Below are positions 3,365-11,158 of a stretch of DNA of 11,158 bases, in pieces (position 1 is the stretch's first letter; every line of letters starts with the position of its first letter). This DNA comes from a bacterium (GTDB lineage Bacteria; CSSED10-310; JAJRTK01). The position numbers and the translations under genes are program-made. The notes beneath the pieces were generated by a model. It saw only the letters and a program-made list of their open reading frames with translations, was not told where the DNA came from and searched no databases. The DNA is taken from the NCBI GenBank assembly GCA_024278345.1, contig JAJRTK010000495.1, positions 1 to 11,158 on the forward strand, written 5' to 3'.

Positions 3365-5608
3365 ATGCTCAGTCAGGATCAGATGCCTCACGGGGGAGCC
3401 ACTTTAGCCGAGGGCTCGGGAATCCCGATCATCCACTCACCCCGCCGGCTTGCCCAGCGGGGGCTCACCCTTTCTCTTCTATTCTTTTTCTTGGGCCTCG
3501 CCGGGGTGTCTCTGGCCGTTCCGCGGCGCTACGTCCGCGTCGAAGGAAAGCGAAGCCTCCCCCTTCGAGTACTCGTCCGCCCCTTCAGCAATATCTATGA
3601 GAAGCCAGACACAGCCAGCGCCATGGTTCGAGAAAACGTCGATGCTCTCCAGGCCTTCTACGTCTACAAGAAACCAAAAAGAGGTTCCTCGGACGGATGG
3701 TACGAGGTGGGGCCGGATACCCGTGGAACCGTTCTTGGCTGGCTCCAGGCCGATGATGTCATGGAATGGAAACAAACCATGTGCGTCTCTTATACCCATC
3801 CGGCGGGGCGCCATCCGGTTCTCCTCTTTAGTGGTGGCAAAGCGCTTCTAAGCCTCCTCAAGGCGCCGCCTAACGAACGGGCGGAAAAGATGCGTCAGTT
3901 CAACCTGGCCATCGACCGGAAGCAGATCCCTGATGATTTCCCCGTAATCTCCCGCGAGCCAAAAGACTACATCGACATTGCCGAGCAATTCTACCTCATG
4001 CCGATCTTAGAAAGCGCTCCCTTTGAATTCGAAACCGGAGATGAAGGGCGGATTCTCCAGGTGGCGGCCGCCGCAAAAAACGAGCGCGGGGCATTGACGG
4101 TCAAGAGCGCTCCAGAACAGAGCTTTGCCTCAGACGCCCCCGATTTTGTCAACAACCCGGAAACGGCCATGAAATCGCTCCAAATGGACGTCATCTACGT
4201 TATCGATACGACAGCGAGCATGGGACCGTTCATTCAGGTTACTCTCGATACCATCCGGGAAGTCAGCCAGGCAGTTGCCTCGGATCCCAGCGTGTCGGAG
4301 AGCGTGAAGTTCGGCCTTTGGGCATATCGCGACTCCATGACGATCCCCGGCATCGAGTTCCATACGAAGAATTTCACTCCAGACCTTCAGAGAATCGACG
4401 ATTTCGGCAACACTTTGACCACCGTTCGACCGGCGAGAGTCGGAAGCCAGGATTACCCAGAGGACGTTTTCGCCGGGATCGAGCGCGCCATCCGGGAGAG
4501 CCAATGGACTCCTGAAGCTCTTCACTTCATCGTCCTCATCGGCGATGCACCCAGCCACGAGCTTGGACACCCCTGGAACTCCACCGGCCAAAGCGCCGAA
4601 ACCCTGCGCCAGTTCGCCGATCCGCCCGACACTTACTACATCTTTGCCCTGCATCTCAAAGATCCACAGGCGCGGCCATTCTGGCCCATCGCCGAAGAAC
4701 AATTCCGAACGCTTTCCAGAAACCCCGGAAGCGGTGAGTCAGCCTACAAAGAGGTTGATTCCAACGCTAGCAGGGCCTTTTCGGAAGCTTCCAAGGCCAT
4801 CGCCGGAAGCCTCGCAAAGATCATTCAGGATGCCAAGGGGGGCCGGTTGAGCATCGCCCAGCTCCGAGCCAAAACTGGCCCGCCCAGCTCCGTCAGTGCT
4901 TCCGGAAGCACCGCCGCCTCTGGATCCACCGAACCTTCAGGCCACCAGCCCCCCCCATCATCGGGAAGCGGAGGCCCCGAGGCGGAGTCGAACCCAATCC
5001 AGGGTGAGGGACAAGCCCCCGTGGCAATCCCCACCGGCGATCAAGAGGTCTCCAAAATGGTAACCCAAGTGGGGTACGCTGCTTTGCTGGAGTGGATTGG
5101 GAAGAAAAAAGGTGCAAAAGCGCCCCGAGACATCGTCGCTTGGACCACAGACCGGGATCCGGAAGATCCGACAATCTCCAGCCTCGACGTCAGGATTCTT
5201 ATTACGAAGAATCAACTGGACTCCTTGGTCCGGGCGCTTCAGGAGATCCTGCTGGCGGCGAAGCAGGCTGACATCGGAGGCGAGGATCTCCTCAAGGCCC
5301 TGCAAGCCATTCCTTCGGTGGCCTCTCGCGGCGCGGAAATCGGCGAGGCCAAAAAGCTTTCGGAAAGCAAAGATTTCTTCCCTGAATTCATCATGGGCCT
5401 CCCCTACAAGAGCCTTGTGATGGACATCGACAACGAAACCTGGAGTGGCTGGGGCGAAGAAGAGCGCGGGCGATTCCTCGAAAACATCGATGCCAAAATC
5501 CAGCTCTATTCGGCCATCTACGACAACGCTAACGGATGGATCTCCCTGAATGAAGGAGACGATCCGGGCCAGTTCGTCCATCCCTTGCTTCTCGATGCTC
5601 TTCCATAA
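3365..5608 (+). CDS. Membrane-anchored SH3-like/vWA protein, PpkA periplasmic-domain homologue lacking the kinase
   Basis: A 747-residue protein. A 31-residue basic cytoplasmic tail is followed by a membrane segment at about 32-51 (TLSLLFFFLGLAGVSLAV), so the bulk lies in the periplasm. Residues about 66-165 look like an SH3-type fold (LRVLVRPFSNIYEKPD ... GWYEVG ... GWLQADDVMEW). Residues about 275-490 are a von Willebrand A domain with the MIDAS motif D281-T-T-A-S285, GLWAYRDS at 317-324 and GDAPSHE at 393-399. A Ser/Gly/Pro-rich linker (505-555) precedes a C-terminal domain ending PLLLDALP. This SH3/vWA/C-terminal order is, to my knowledge, that of the extracytoplasmic part of PpkA, the T6SS threonine kinase. 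The N-terminal kinase of PpkA is missing and nothing replaces it. Start supported by AAGGGGA before ATG 3365. First gene of the operon, behind the sigma-54 promoter. It may be an envelope sensor or a TagR partner. Confidence 0.8.
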   Translation: MLSQDQMPHGGATLAEGSGIPIIHSPRRLAQRGLTLSLLFFFLGLAGVSLAVPRRYVRVEGKRSLPLRVLVRPFSNIYEKPDTASAMVRENVDALQAFYVYKKPKRGSSDGWYEVGPDTRGTVLGWLQADDVMEWKQTMCVSYTHPAGRHPVLLFSGGKALLSLLKAPPNERAEKMRQFNLAIDRKQIPDDFPVISREPKDYIDIAEQFYLMPILESAPFEFETGDEGRILQVAAAAKNERGALTVKSAPEQSFASDAPDFVNNPETAMKSLQMDVIYVIDTTASMGPFIQVTLDTIREVSQAVASDPSVSESVKFGLWAYRDSMTIPGIEFHTKNFTPDLQRIDDFGNTLTTVRPARVGSQDYPEDVFAGIERAIRESQWTPEALHFIVLIGDAPSHELGHPWNSTGQSAETLRQFADPPDTYYIFALHLKDPQARPFWPIAEEQFRTLSRNPGSGESAYKEVDSNASRAFSEASKAIAGSLAKIIQDAKGGRLSIAQLRAKTGPPSSVSASGSTAASGSTEPSGHQPPPSSGSGGPEAESNPIQGEGQAPVAIPTGDQEVSKMVTQVGYAALLEWIGKKKGAKAPRDIVAWTTDRDPEDPTISSLDVRILITKNQLDSLVRALQEILLAAKQADIGGEDLLKALQAIPSVASRGAEIGEAKKLSESKDFFPEFIMGLPYKSLVMDIDNETWSGWGEEERGRFLENIDAKIQLYSAIYDNANGWISLNEGDDPGQFVHPLLLDALP

Positions 5609-5617
5609 CTCAGCCGT

Positions 5618-5639
5618 GGGCGCCTCTACGCAGGCGCCC
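5618..5639 (+). other. Perfect hairpin between the vWA and ATPase genes
   Basis: GGGCGCCT (5618-5625) and AGGCGCCC (5632-5639) form an uninterrupted 8-bp GC-rich stem with a 6-base loop, ten bases after the vWA stop codon. No T-run follows, so it is not a standard intrinsic terminator. It could stabilise or mark processing of the upstream message, or attenuate transcription into the ABC genes. Confidence 0.45.
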
Positions 5640-5664
5640 TGCTCCAAGCACCGAGGGACAAGAC

Positions 5665-6432
5665 ATGGCAGATTCATTGCCGGTATACCGACTCCGCCAG
5701 GTTTCCAAGCTACGTGAAAAGGGTGGCCACGCTTTCGAGTTGACCGTCAACAGCCTGGACATATTCGCCGGTGACTTCGTCGCCGTGGTTGGCCCGAGCG
5801 GCTGCGGGAAGAGCACTCTCCTCGATCTTCTTGCCCTGGTCCTCACGCCCAGCTCCGCCGAACAGTTTTCCATCAGCGCCGGAGAGAGCCAGAGTTTCGC
5901 GGTAGCGGGAAAAAACGATGTCGAATTGGCGGAGTTTCGAAAGCGGAACCTTGGCTACATTCTTCAAACGGGGGGGCTCCTCCCCTTCTTGAGTGTCTGG
6001 GAAAACGTCTTGCTCCCCTCTCTTATCAACGGCGATGGAGCGACGGGAAAAACCAAGGCTCTGGAGCTCCTCGGCAGCCTTCAAATCGAAGAGCAGAGGA
6101 ACAAAAAGCCTCAGTTCCTTTCCGGGGGGCAAAGGCAGCGCGTGGCCATTGCACGGGCCCTTGTACATTCCCCGTCCATCGTGCTCGCCGACGAGCCAAC
6201 CGCCGCGGTGGACCGCGACACCGCCCTTGAGATCCTCGATCAACTCACCGACCTGACCCGGCGACAAAACGTCGCCCTTCTCATGGTGACCCACGATCTG
6301 GAGCTCGCCGCGAAGGCTCAACGCATCTTCACCTTCCAGTGGAAGCGGACCAGCTCCACGTTCACTGAATCCCGCTGCTTTGAATGCACCCCCGGGAGCT
6401 CTTCGGCGAAGGACACTCGAGCGCCCCGGTGA
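5665..6432 (+). CDS. ABC transporter ATPase, TagT/LolD-like
   Basis: A 255-residue nucleotide-binding subunit. All family motifs are intact: Walker A GPSGCGKST (43-51), Q-loop Gln101 in YILQTGGLLPFLSVWENV, signature LSGGQ (152-156), Walker B IVLADE (172-177), D-loop AAVDRD, and switch His210. It should hydrolyse ATP on the inner face of the membrane and drive the FtsX-type permease encoded next. The closest kinds are LolD/MacB and TagT. The Q-loop context with GGLLPFLSV, together with a preceding vWA gene and following permease and FGE-fold genes, points to TagT. Start supported by GAGGGA 6 bases before the ATG. After the switch region it carries about 30 extra residues without recognisable features, where LolD-type proteins usually end. 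A 133-base purine-rich gap separates it from the permease. Confidence 0.9.
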   Translation: MADSLPVYRLRQVSKLREKGGHAFELTVNSLDIFAGDFVAVVGPSGCGKSTLLDLLALVLTPSSAEQFSISAGESQSFAVAGKNDVELAEFRKRNLGYILQTGGLLPFLSVWENVLLPSLINGDGATGKTKALELLGSLQIEEQRNKKPQFLSGGQRQRVAIARALVHSPSIVLADEPTAAVDRDTALEILDQLTDLTRRQNVALLMVTHDLELAAKAQRIFTFQWKRTSSTFTESRCFECTPGSSSAKDTRAPR

Positions 6433-6565
6433 TTCCAAAGATCCCAACAACTCCACCAAAAGGAGCCGGCAAGAGAAGACCGAATCAACGAGGCGGGAGC
6501 TCCACGGCGCCGACGATAGCGAAGAAACGGCGTAGAGGCGGAAAACGCCGGAAAAGGAAAAAACG

Positions 6566-8473
6566 ATGACCGCGGACTCCCCAATGCTATTGAGTTTCAA
6601 GAGAAAGGCCACTGTTTTCTGGCTTGCGGTATCCGACCTCAAGCACGAATGGATCCTCTCCGCCTGTATGGTCCTTTCCATCATGGCCGTCCTCTCGCCG
6701 CTTCTCTTTCTATTTGGCCTCAAACACGGCCTCATCACCATTTACACGCGCCATATCACGGAAAATCCTATCAACAGGGAGATTCGGCCTTTAAGCAGCC
6801 GGCTGTACGAAAAGGAGTGGTTCCAAGAGCTCAGGAAACGGCCCGACACCGTCTTCGTCATCCCCAACACTCGCCTCATTGCCGCAACCGTAAGAGCTCG
6901 CGCAAAAGAGTCCACGGGGAAGGTGGAGCTGGAGCTGGTCCCAACGGCGGAGGGAGATCCGCTGCTCGCCGACAACGGCACGCCGATCCCGGCCAGCGGA
7001 GAATGCGTGTTGACTCACCTGGCCGCCGAAAAGCTCGCGGTCAAGGCCGGCCAAAGCATCACCATTGAGGCAAACCGCCTCACCGCCCGCGGCAAATCGG
7101 AGATCGTCACCACGAAGCTCCAGGTCAAGGGGGTCTTGCCCATCCGCGCCAGCTCGCGGCGCCTGATTTTCACGCCTCTCCCTTTATTGGAATCCATCGA
7201 ACGGTTCAAGGACGGAATGGCCGTCGCAAAATATGGATGGCCGGGAAAACTGCCTCGGGCACTGCCCCGGTACACGGGAGTCGTGGTGATCACTCCGCGG
7301 CAATTGGACAAAATCAGGCGGCAACATCTCATCGTCGTTACAGGCTTCACGCGCCTGGAAGAGTGGTCCTTGCGGGATCTGCTGGAAAAGCGTGGAGTTC
7401 GTCTCGAAAAGGGCAACGTCCTCTTCCTTTCAACCCGAAGCTCCCTGGTAGACAAAAGCAGCATCCGGAATGTCCGCAACCGGCTTCGGGGCAAGAGGGC
7501 GGTTCTATTGCCCTACGTTCCCGCCCTGGAAGCCCATCTTCAGGTCGCCGGGAAAGAAGGGGCAAAGCTCTCTCTCTATGGTGTCTCTCCCGATAAGTCC
7601 CTGGAGGAGCTTAACCCAAAGGACGAGCTTCCTCGGTGGGGAAGCTCCGGCGACTCCGGAAGCGAGCTCCTACAAATCGCACTTCCCAGGGGAATGGCTC
7701 AGGCTGGAGAAAAGGTCGTCGTCCGGGTACAGGGTGGCCACGGCATCCTGGAGTTCCCGGCCACGGTTGTATCGGTTCCCTCACCCTTCCCCTCTGGCGC
7801 TCTCATCCCCGGAAGACTGGCTGGGATTCTGAAGTTGTTGGACAAGCGAGAGGTCCGTTCCGCGCCAGACGAGGGAGCCTTCTTGCTCTCGCGGAAGGGG
7901 TACTCGAGTTTCCGGGTGTACGCGAAGACGATCCACGAAGTCGATGGGCTCCGACGGTTTTTCGAAAACCAGTCGATTCCCGTGCGGTCCCAGGTCCAGA
8001 AGATCGCCAGCGTTCTTCAACTGACCGGCTACCTGGACCTCATCTACCTGCTCATCGCCGCCGTGGCCATACTCGGGACCATCACGGCGATGATGGCCAG
8101 TCTTTACGCATCGGTGGAGCGCAAGCGGCGCGAATGGGGAGTGCTGCGCCTGATCGGGCTTTCGGGAGTCGCCCTTTTCCGATTTCCCATCTATCAGGGA
8201 GGAATTCTCGCCCTCGGGGGGCTGCTCCTTTCCATCGGCCTGTTCGAGATCCTGTCATCGATCTCCGACCCTCTTTTTCGCCCCTACGTGGAGCAGCTCC
8301 TGGGTTTTCCCATCACGGCGCTCCGGAACAGCCCGCGGGGGATTTGCACAATCCCCGCCCCCTACTACGCGGCCTCCTTCGCTTTGACCCTTGTCGTTTC
8401 TTGTGTCGCTTCGATCATCGCGGCACGCCGGGTTCAGGGCGTCGATCCGGCGGAGGTGCTCAGGGATGAGTGA
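6566..8473 (+). CDS. FtsX-type ABC permease, TagS/LolC-like
   Basis: A 635-residue inner-membrane protein with the classical MacB/LolC/FtsX arrangement. There is one membrane segment near the N-terminus (about 30-51), then a very large extracytoplasmic domain (about 55-485), then three segments at about 492-514, 541-562 and 599-618. The loop ERKRREWGVLRLIGLS (518-533) is the typical FtsX coupling region that touches the ATPase, and the end AARRVQGVDPAEVLRDE is typical of the family. Such permeases move by mechanotransmission rather than carrying small solutes, acting on lipoproteins or signalling partners. Pairing with the preceding ATPase and the following FGE-fold protein suggests TagS. The ribosome site is AAAAGG before ATG 6566. 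The stop is 34 bases before the next start, so the genes are probably cotranscribed. Family firm, TagS role inferred from order. Confidence 0.87.
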   Translation: MTADSPMLLSFKRKATVFWLAVSDLKHEWILSACMVLSIMAVLSPLLFLFGLKHGLITIYTRHITENPINREIRPLSSRLYEKEWFQELRKRPDTVFVIPNTRLIAATVRARAKESTGKVELELVPTAEGDPLLADNGTPIPASGECVLTHLAAEKLAVKAGQSITIEANRLTARGKSEIVTTKLQVKGVLPIRASSRRLIFTPLPLLESIERFKDGMAVAKYGWPGKLPRALPRYTGVVVITPRQLDKIRRQHLIVVTGFTRLEEWSLRDLLEKRGVRLEKGNVLFLSTRSSLVDKSSIRNVRNRLRGKRAVLLPYVPALEAHLQVAGKEGAKLSLYGVSPDKSLEELNPKDELPRWGSSGDSGSELLQIALPRGMAQAGEKVVVRVQGGHGILEFPATVVSVPSPFPSGALIPGRLAGILKLLDKREVRSAPDEGAFLLSRKGYSSFRVYAKTIHEVDGLRRFFENQSIPVRSQVQKIASVLQLTGYLDLIYLLIAAVAILGTITAMMASLYASVERKRREWGVLRLIGLSGVALFRFPIYQGGILALGGLLLSIGLFEILSSISDPLFRPYVEQLLGFPITALRNSPRGICTIPAPYYAASFALTLVVSCVASIIAARRVQGVDPAEVLRDE

Positions 8474-8507
8474 GTGGCGCAATAGAAACTATCACAGGAA
8501 GGGAACA

Positions 8508-9590
8508 ATGGGGGAAACCCGTGAAAAGGCGAGCAGCGCGAACGGCTGTGAGAGATGGGAGCGGAAGTCAACCCAAAGAACCAACAGCGTTTGGCCGAAA
8601 CTGTCTCCCCAAGGGGATACGAACCAACAAACTGGCAAAGGGGCCAAGCCAACAAACCGGGCTCTCGCTCCCCTTGGGCGGCGTTTCCCATGGATGCTTC
8701 TCCTGTTTTGTCTCCTGGAAGCAATGCCCTTGAGGAGCGAGGCCCACAATCCTCGCCCCACCGCGGGTGACTTCGTTCTTCCCATGCCCAATGGGGAAGA
8801 AATGGTGTTTCGCCGCGTCTTCCTGGACAAGGGTGCCGACCTATTCGCCATCCGCATCTTCCAAGTTGGTGAAGAAAAAGGGGTTTTGGGGGAGGAATCC
8901 GTGAAGGTCGGGCTGGGTGGAGAGTTTCTTGAAAAGAACAGCCACGGCGCTCTGGACTGGGTCTACTACCTGGGCAAATACGAGGTCACCGAGGGCCAGT
9001 ATCTCGCCATCATGGGGCCTGGAAGTCGTTCGCCGAGTCAGAAGCCGGCGGCGGGGCATTCCTGGTTTGAAGTCCAGGAGTTTCTTCACCGCTACAACCT
9101 CTGGTTATTCGAGAACGCGGCATCGGCCCTCCCCAAGAACGACGGGGTGACGGGATTTCTTCGCCTCCCCACCGAAGTCGAATGGGAGTTTGCGGCAAGG
9201 GGTGGAAGCACGGCTCCCAAAGAGCTTTTCAAGAAGAAGCATCCCTATGCCGGCGCCCTCGAAAGGTTCGAGTGGTTCTCCGGGCCTCGTTCTTCCGGGA
9301 ACAAGCTCAAGCGGGCTGGCTTGAGGAAGCCTAACCCTTTGGGCCTTCACGACATGCTGGGAAACGTCCAGGAAATGACGGGATCGTTGTACCAGGTGGA
9401 GTATTACCAGGGCAGCGTGGGAGGCTTCGTGGCCAGAGGCGGACACTACTTGTCGCCCAGGAGTGAGATCCGGGTCGCCCGGCGGGTGGAGATCCCCTTC
9501 TATCAGGAGGGAAGGCCCTCGAAAGATAAGACGATGGGCTTCCGAGTCATGGTGGCTTCCACAATCCATACCTCTCCCCAACGACGGTAA
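8508..9590 (+). CDS. FGE/SUMF1-fold protein, TagR-like, probably non-catalytic
   Basis: A 360-residue product. I chose ATG 8508 because AGGAAGGGA lies just upstream; the in-frame region before it overlaps the permease gene. A membrane or signal segment (about 62-79, MLLLFCLLEAMPLRSEA, preceded by Arg58-Arg59) follows an unusually long, polar 60-residue head. The rest shows the formylglycine-generating enzyme fold: YYLGKYEVTEGQY, FLRLPTEVEWEFAARGG, NPLGLHDMLGNVQEM, FVARGGHYLSPRSEIRVARR and MGFRVMV. The two active-site cysteines of true FGE, expected after the RGG motif, are replaced (Ser and a non-Cys residue), so sulfatase activation is unlikely. TagR, which promotes PpkA activation in the periplasm, is a non-enzymatic member of this family. 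The gene ends at TAA 9588-9590, after which the same frame runs on open for another 650 bases, so the product may be truncated. Confidence 0.85.
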   Translation: MGETREKASSANGCERWERKSTQRTNSVWPKLSPQGDTNQQTGKGAKPTNRALAPLGRRFPWMLLLFCLLEAMPLRSEAHNPRPTAGDFVLPMPNGEEMVFRRVFLDKGADLFAIRIFQVGEEKGVLGEESVKVGLGGEFLEKNSHGALDWVYYLGKYEVTEGQYLAIMGPGSRSPSQKPAAGHSWFEVQEFLHRYNLWLFENAASALPKNDGVTGFLRLPTEVEWEFAARGGSTAPKELFKKKHPYAGALERFEWFSGPRSSGNKLKRAGLRKPNPLGLHDMLGNVQEMTGSLYQVEYYQGSVGGFVARGGHYLSPRSEIRVARRVEIPFYQEGRPSKDKTMGFRVMVASTIHTSPQRR

Positions 9591-9641
9591 AAGCGCAAGA
9601 AGGAATGGGGTGAGTACAAGAAGAGCCGGCTGCCTCCGGCG

Positions 9642-10247
9642 TTGCCGGGTGCGACCCTTTCCCTCAACGTCCGGCGAGCCGCCACCAATGCGGACCTCCG
9701 AGGTCTGCTGAAAAACCTGGAGAATCAGATTCGGAGCAACGCCCCTGAGGTGTTCAGCCCCCTCAAGGGCGATTTCCGCAGATTGAGTGGACTCCTCGAC
9801 AACCTTGAATCCCTCAGCAAGAGAGGGGAGCTCAAGTATGCCTTCGCCCTTGTGAAGATCGGTGTCGAAGCGGCGGGAATGACGACTGTCATGGCGTTTC
9901 AGAAGCTCCCCGTGAAAAGAGACGCTCTGAAAAAGCTGGAGAAAGGTGGCTACTCGAAGCTGGTTGCCAAGGTCAAAGCGCAGATCGCCGAGCTCGAGTC
10001 CAATATCGACCGCGGCATAGAGCGTTACGGAACGATCTTCGACGAATTGGGCGAGCTTGACGACGACGTCGTTCGAAAGAGCTTCGGGGATTACATCGGA
10101 TGGGTTCGTCGTCAGGGTCCCAAGTACGGCAGGCAGCTCAAATCCGCCAAGCTCATGCAACGCCACTTCCAGACCTATCTTCAGACCAGGCGCTGGGATG
10201 GCGCCACCTGGAGAAGCGCTCTCAAAAACCTTTCCAAATCTCCTTGA
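9642..10247 (+). CDS. Helical protein, likely the detached C-terminal part of the TagR-like protein
   Basis: The frame is the same as the upstream FGE-fold gene and is open from directly after its TAA (9591) to TGA 10247. The first possible start is TTG 9642, with no ribosome site before it, giving 201 residues. The codons between 9591 and 9642 (KRKKEWGEYKKSRLPPA) already have the G/C-rich third positions of coding sequence here. The product is rich in charged residues and predicted helices (for example DALKKLEKGGYSKLVAKVKAQ, IDRGIERYGTIFDELGELDDD), has no signal peptide and matches no family I can name. Best reading: the C-terminal helical region of an ancestral protein of about 579 residues, split by one stop codon. 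Otherwise it is a separately translated gene with a poor start. The coding frame is credible; the start is not settled. Confidence 0.6.
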   Translation: MPGATLSLNVRRAATNADLRGLLKNLENQIRSNAPEVFSPLKGDFRRLSGLLDNLESLSKRGELKYAFALVKIGVEAAGMTTVMAFQKLPVKRDALKKLEKGGYSKLVAKVKAQIAELESNIDRGIERYGTIFDELGELDDDVVRKSFGDYIGWVRRQGPKYGRQLKSAKLMQRHFQTYLQTRRWDGATWRSALKNLSKSP

Positions 10248-10306: not shown

Positions 10307-11155
10307 GTGAAACGTAAGTCCATAGCCTATCTAGTCACCGCCAGCTTATTGGTTTGTCTTTCGGTCACCACGGCGTCGTCCGCGCTGGCTAGGAAGCGGA
10401 AGAAGGACCAGAAAACGGAGGCAGCCTCGAGCTCCGCAAAGGAGGATCGTCGGATCAAGGTTCAGGGGATCATGGAAACCATCATCTTCTCCAAGCTCGG
10501 CAGACTTGGCGCGTCCGTGGTTCTGAAGAAGGTCATGGGGAAACAGGATGCTCAGATCATTCTGAACCTCATCGAAGGAGGGATCCTCTACGTCGGCGCA
10601 CGCAGGACCACCAAAATCCTGAAGCAGAGGAAGAAATATCGAAGCGATGAAGAGTGGATTGCGGCCGTCAGCAAATCCTCGAGAGAGAACAATGATCGAG
10701 CAGCGGCGAACAACAAGAAACTTCAAAGCGAGCTCAACATTCTGACAGTGCAAGTCTTGGAGCTCGAAAGCAAGCTGAAGAAGGGGACGGCCAAGGAAAA
10801 AGAGCTTGTCGCCATGCGCGGCATTCTCAAAAAGAAACGGAACGAGGCATGGAGTGCCGCCGCCGCGCTGCGGGGTGAGGCAAAGAAAATTGAGAAGCGG
10901 TTCAAGGCAAAAAAGATCGAGTCGGAGCAAATGTATGCCCAGCTCCGCAAAACTCTGGAAGAAAAGCAGAAACGCGCTGAAGAGCTCGACGAGCTAGCAG
11001 ACAGTTTTGCGTCGCAATCGCTCCTGGTTGGGGACCGATCAGATCCGGTTGACAAGTCCACGCACGAAAGGAACCCACCGTTCAATTTCGTGAATCCCAT
11101 CCAGCCCGCCACCGGCAAGATGCCGGTGCCACCGTTTCGGCGAAGACAATTGTAA
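10307..11155 (+). CDS. Exported coiled-coil protein of unknown function (TagQ position)
   Basis: A 282-residue product from GTG 10307. Residues 1-28 form a signal peptide (MKRKSIAYLVTASLLVCLSV..., cut likely after SSALA28). The Cys at 17 lacks a small residue before it, so this is not a good lipobox. A Lys/Arg/Ser-rich stretch is followed by a moderately hydrophobic segment (about 55-100, GRLGASVVLKKVMG, ILNLIEGGILYVGARR). A long charged coiled coil spans about 125-240, full of Lys, Glu, Ala and Leu heptads (LQSELNILTVQVLELESKLKK). I do not recognise the family. It sits where tagQ, an outer-membrane lipoprotein gene, lies in the Pseudomonas cluster, but resemblance is by position only. Its last residues (about 264-274, NPIQPATGKMP) translate a hairpin repeat, so the C-terminus may have been rewritten by repeat insertion. 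Confidence 0.75.
   Translation: MKRKSIAYLVTASLLVCLSVTTASSALARKRKKDQKTEAASSSAKEDRRIKVQGIMETIIFSKLGRLGASVVLKKVMGKQDAQIILNLIEGGILYVGARRTTKILKQRKKYRSDEEWIAAVSKSSRENNDRAAANNKKLQSELNILTVQVLELESKLKKGTAKEKELVAMRGILKKKRNEAWSAAAALRGEAKKIEKRFKAKKIESEQMYAQLRKTLEEKQKRAEELDELADSFASQSLLVGDRSDPVDKSTHERNPPFNFVNPIQPATGKMPVPPFRRRQL
11110..11128. repeat. REP-like hairpin at the 3' end of the last gene
   Basis: CACCGGCA (11110-11117) and TGCCGGTG (11121-11128) form a perfect 8-bp stem around AGA. The unit, with its flanking GCC/GCCAC, resembles interspersed palindromic repeats common in several GC-rich phyla. It lies inside the reading frame, close to the stop codon. Confidence 0.5.
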
Positions 11156-11158
11156 AGC

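Follow-up and report, generated by a model that had tools for sequence, protein, structure and literature searches.

A TagQRST-like gene module without a kinase on its contig, and its S41 protease-linked relatives

The window analysed here is a whole contig (G000:C440, 11,158 nucleotides) of a draft genome of 6.06 Mb, which is distributed over 550 contigs and is 87.9% complete. It carries a run of genes whose products resemble a vWA protein and the proteins TagT, TagS, TagR and TagQ, laid out as follows:

3365 to 5608, plus strand: periplasmic SH3-like/vWA protein, counterpart of the periplasmic half of PpkA (747 aa, with a probable signal peptide)
5665 to 6432, plus strand: TagT-like ABC ATPase of the LolD/MacB/FtsE group (255 aa)
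6566 to 8473, plus strand: TagS-like FtsX/type VII permease, long form (635 aa)
8466 to 9590, plus strand: N-terminal part of a TagR-like FGE-fold protein (alternative starts at 8508 and 8694 are possible)
9588 to 9590, plus strand: in-frame TAA interrupting the TagR-like gene, which is collinear with uninterrupted relatives
9591 to 10247, plus strand: part of the TagR-like gene past the stop, coding for its helical C-terminal domain (the earliest in-frame start codon is TTG at 9642)
10307 to 11155, plus strand: TagQ-like coiled-coil protein (assigned by hhalign against TagQ proteins of the window's clade, described below)

The original prediction had placed the vWA, ABC ATPase, FtsX permease and FGE-fold genes in a single operon, and this holds, as all four are real genes lying in one orientation on the plus strand. 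The operon reaches beyond position 10247, where that description ended, to 11155, taking in the TagQ-like gene that begins with GTG at 10307. Full-length homologues in the same order were found in Desulfobacterales, Azospirillum, Klebsiella, Tistrella and others (in Thiodictyon, the vWA and ABC genes only), so the arrangement cannot be attributed to chance. Apart from the stop in the TagR-like gene, the reading frames of the module are intact. Divergent from the module, a gene on the minus strand (1402-2919) encodes a secreted caspase-like (C14) protein that is not conserved at this place in the relatives examined. The module has no match in phages, and a comparison with anti-phage defence systems returned ATPase matches for TagT and a caspase match for the divergent neighbour, and nothing else.

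The vWA protein retains MIDAS-like residues (D281-T283-S285 ... D394). Its vWA domain is weak in Pfam (0.0076, below the cut-off) and NCBIfam yielded no family for it, while Foldseek matched its structure model to vWA domains. This model has low confidence (pLDDT 47) and, like that of TagS, was built from four sequences; only fold-level matches were used from either. A PpkA-like protein with a 31-residue cytoplasmic tail had been proposed here, which the homologues do not bear out. Most of them, within the window's clade and outside it alike, begin with ordinary cleavable signal peptides, which makes such a tail unlikely; in the window protein the same hydrophobic segment is preceded by a longer n-region. 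Judged from this alignment of features, the 31 residues are most likely a long signal-peptide n-region, and the vWA protein appears to be exported as a protein in its own right, rather than being a truncated PpkA that retains a short cytoplasmic part.

The ATPase and permease share with the type VII ABC systems (LolCDE, MacB, FtsEX) the combination of a LolD-like ATPase with an FtsX-type permease that has a large periplasmic part. The FtsX domain of the permease scores above the Pfam cut-off, and its model, although of low confidence (pLDDT 50, four sequences), is closest in Foldseek to LolC, LolE and MacB. The pair differs from these systems in its vWA and FGE-fold partners and in its NCBIfam scores, which lie far below the family cut-offs both for the ATPase (best against LolD, 170.5 against a cut-off of 307.75) and for the permease (LolCE, 24.3 against 362.45). 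TagS is about 610-680 aa long in members of the window's clade with an intact frame and, with few exceptions, about 380-460 aa outside the clade; these lengths were taken without L052 (TagS in two pieces), L057 (an extended ORF call) and L053 (cut).

The FGE domain of the TagR-like protein is above the Pfam cut-off. In relatives this domain is fused to a helical C-terminal one, to which the window ORF at 9642-10247 aligns. Both parts share one frame with a single TAA between them, and the alignment to relatives continues across it. The segment past the TAA has no further stop and a codon-position GC of 0.58/0.41/0.72, as in intact coding genes. Two other accounts of this region were discarded: the ORF at 9642-10247 does not stand as a gene of its own, since it encodes the C-terminal domain of the FGE protein and shares its frame, and a frameshift did not split the gene, as nothing but the in-frame TAA separates its two parts. 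The protein had also been singled out as Cys-less. The mature protein does lack cysteine, but this is not a defining trait, as the cysteine positions of its relatives are not conserved.

The product of 10307-11155 matched the TagQ proteins of the clade in hhalign (96%, E 4.6e-9), the match being to their coiled-coil part. A coiled-coil artefact was ruled out with a second coiled-coil family as control, which gave 1.3%. The clade homologues are glycine-zipper proteins, most with a clear lipobox; the window protein has neither a lipobox nor a clear glycine zipper, and its C-terminal end looks unrelated to theirs. At its 3' end (about 11090-11158) the ORF reads as a type of sequence common in dispersed repeats (GGCAAGATGCCGGTGCCACC), a possible reason for the contig ending there.

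In Pseudomonas aeruginosa, outer-membrane damage is sensed through TagQRST and PpkA (PMC11881912); TagQ recruits TagR, and TagS and TagT form an inner-membrane ABC complex (PMC6657622). We compared the window with a split version of this system on plasmid pTM1 of Tistrella mobilis, where the genes tssH-tagH-tssJ-tssK-tssL-tssM-tagF are followed by a PP2C phosphatase, a Ser/Thr kinase and a separate vWA gene, and then by an ABC ATPase, an FtsX permease, a SUMF1/FGE protein, a small hypothetical gene and vgrG. The kinase and vWA genes of Tistrella are a split PpkA within a real T6SS, and it is this form, rather than the fused PpkA of Pseudomonas, to which the comparison refers. The vWA proteins are 28% identical in an alignment that takes in almost all of the window protein (E 2e-68), and identity is 39% for TagT, 34-38% in two blocks for TagS and 37% for TagR. 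The specific kinship to TagT, TagS, TagR and the vWA part that had been predicted is thereby supported gene by gene against a T6SS set, at 28-39% identity, and the predicted order of vWA module, tagT, tagS and tagR is identical on pTM1.

The window thus shares TagT, TagS, TagR, TagQ-like and vWA proteins with the H1-T6SS threonine phosphorylation pathway of P. aeruginosa (PMC6657622, PMC11881912), and its gene order with the split Tistrella version. It differs in the extra region of about 200 residues in TagS, in a TagQ-like protein without a lipobox, and in what surrounds it: no PppA or T6SS genes lie nearby, and no kinase is found among the translated genes of the contig. Searches of the 88% complete genome for the T6SS markers TssC and TssK (E. 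coli control positive) and TagF (found by the same search in 5 other genomes) gave no match. TssC was likewise not found in the near-complete clade genomes G115 and G382, and was found in four other clade genomes; its absence from these three genomes indicates that the module is not in general part of a T6SS. The proposal that the sensing half of the pathway is uncoupled from phosphorylation and secretion therefore stands as far as the contig kinase and the genomic TssC, TssK and TagF are concerned, but this condition is not unique to the window, as kinase-less sets linked to srfABC are common.

Such sets have been known since 2013, when kinase-less TagQRST was described beside srfABC in host-associated Deltaproteobacteria, only one of whose genomes contained T6SS machinery (PMC3608642); the neighbourhood was noted again in 2019 for Xenorhabdus (PMC6950479). 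Homologues of the vWA protein are present in 114 Klebsiella plasmid records, and the order SrfB-SrfC-TM protein-vWA-TagT-TagS-TagR was seen on the inspected plasmids of Klebsiella, Lelliottia, Gluconobacter and Cereibacter and in most Desulfobacterota loci. These SrfABC-associated clusters (Klebsiella plasmids, Gluconobacter, Cereibacter, host-associated Deltaproteobacteria) have the same kinase-less vWA-TagT-TagS-TagR cassette as the window and often carry TagQ-like lipoproteins. The window differs from them in its long TagS, its separate clade and the lack of SrfA, SrfB, SrfC or TM 'SrfD' genes, and where they often include a trypsin-like protease its relatives have an S41 protease instead. 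In the window's genome, SrfC had no match (a Klebsiella record was positive as control), nor did SrfB in a search run without a positive control.

The T6SS and Srf sets have a further component in common. The Tistrella kinase (L049:10861-12288) is laid out as kinase, TM segment and Sel1-like tail, and the last two of these match the C-terminal half of the TM protein whose gene immediately precedes vWA in Srf clusters. In phmmer the tail reached 1.5e-12 for L094 (13886-14932) and 9.4e-12 for Gluconobacter, with weaker matches for several Desulfobacterota. The N-terminal head of the Srf-cluster TM protein is not a kinase. The head on this shared Sel1-like receiver tail is thus a kinase in one case and something else in the other, which makes the outputs look swappable. 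This TM/Sel1 receiver gene, present in the T6SS case and many Srf clusters, was not detected in loci of the window's type.

In a maximum-likelihood tree of 39 vWA proteins, the window falls in a 12-member clade (support 100/100, branch 1.39) that is separate from every Srf and Tistrella sequence. The window thus belongs to a third clade, probably new and distinct from the T6SS and Srf types. Nine of its loci (L002, L005, L006, L052, L054-L057 and L093) extend far enough to show vWA-TagT-TagS-TagR-TagQ followed by a coiled-coil lipoprotein and an S41/PDZ protease, with a peptidoglycan-binding protein between these two in some of them; the other three members (the window, L004 and L053) are cut by contig ends. 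The protease lies downstream in all nine loci with enough sequence and keeps its catalytic Ser and Lys in 9/9; several genomes of the clade are drafts. No S41 homologue occurs in the Srf loci examined (Fisher p 5e-8, with kinship between loci ignored). Besides the window's own phylum, the S41-linked clade covers at least two others (an Alphaproteobacteria plasmid and Desulfobacterota), as well as genome G767. With its members from Desulfobacterota, the Azospirillum plasmid and G767 the window shares the fully supported clade, the long TagS and the gene order up to TagQ; it differs in its interrupted TagR, in its TagQ without a lipobox, and in that the contig ends, at 11158, before the positions of the lipoprotein and protease genes. 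S41 matches in the window's genome are limited to contigs C437 and C17, neither adjoining the module; the better of the two, that on C437, was tried as the missing partner and rejected as a CtpA-like gene in a housekeeping context.

We tentatively read the module as a kinase-less envelope sensor of the TagQRST type whose most likely output would be regulated envelope proteolysis by the S41 protease, a reading that we place somewhat short of an even chance. The vWA, TagR-like FGE-fold and TagQ-like coiled-coil proteins would act in the periplasm together with an inner-membrane TagT-TagS pair resembling LolCDE and MacB, and by analogy with P. aeruginosa TagQRST the module would report damage to the outer membrane or envelope. 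TagTS might pass an ATP-driven conformational signal to the vWA and TagR partners and from these to the protease, with what is sensed, the direction of signalling and the output all proposed from the comparison; the window's own S41 protease is predicted to lie beyond the contig end. The S41 linkage, the conserved Ser and Lys and the lack of a receiver gene in window-type loci together favour, as we infer, an output that stays within the envelope.

Three other readings were weighed. The module could be a split PpkA pathway that signals through a Ser/Thr kinase gene located elsewhere, and two relatives speak for this: in Tistrella the kinase and vWA protein are separate genes, and on the Azospirillum plasmid a window-type module has as neighbours a divergent kinase, whose periplasmic tail is SH3-like, and a PP2C phosphatase (L002:10934-13793), so phosphorylation is possible there. 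We nevertheless regard this as unlikely, as phmmer detected no kinase in the fetched flanks of clade loci other than Azospirillum (a motif regex was set aside because it misses the Tistrella kinase) and the clade loci have no TM/Sel1 receiver gene, unlike the T6SS case and many Srf clusters. An equally improbable reading is that the window copy is decaying, its TagR truncated by a stop and its TagQ deprived of a lipid anchor. The TAA at 9588-9590 and the missing lipobox and glycine zipper would fit this, as would a truncated sigma-54 activator gene nearby: at 2-1207 on the minus strand, the start of a gene resembles a GAF and sigma-54 activator protein whose AAA+ part stops after the Walker A region, and it looks truncated or frameshifted. 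However, the other frames of the module are intact, the segment past the stop keeps its coding GC pattern and open frame, and in a draft genome a lone stop may stem from an error in sequencing. Least probable is a transporter, such as a LolCDE-like machine for the module's own lipoproteins (TagQ and the coiled-coil lipoprotein), which would agree with the best TagT score (LolD, below cut-off), the LolC/LolE-like fold of TagS and the two lipoprotein genes that come next in most relatives, but not with scores so far under the LolD and LolCE cut-offs, with the signalling function of the T6SS homologues (PMC6657622) or with the presence of vWA and TagR beside the ABC pair at almost every locus.

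One published account confines TagQRST to the T6SS of Pseudomonas (PMC6082577). It is conceivable, though we would put it below an even chance, that TagQRST and an independently encoded vWA protein form an old modular sensor of envelope damage with exchangeable outputs, and that a kinase was fused to this sensor only late, giving PpkA. The outputs would be a kinase and T6SS in one case, SrfABC through a TM protein with a Sel1-like tail and no kinase head in another and, in the window's clade, an S41 protease in the periplasm without any output to the cytoplasm. If TagQRST does occur in several phyla with different outputs, the sensing step becomes separated from phosphorylation and secretion, what TagQRST senses becomes testable in bacteria without a T6SS, and the unexplained srfABC operon gains a probable input. 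The openly readable literature yielded nothing on an S41-linked TagQRST cluster; as subscription papers lay outside this search, novelty is not proven, and the S41-linked clade with a long TagS is probably new, while the Srf-linked kinase-less form was already known.

Second vWA paralogues occur in two Desulfobacterota genomes (L067 and L071), with no Srf or S41 genes detected near them. In both, the TagT match lies within an ORF of about 690 aa, possibly a fusion of TagT and TagS.
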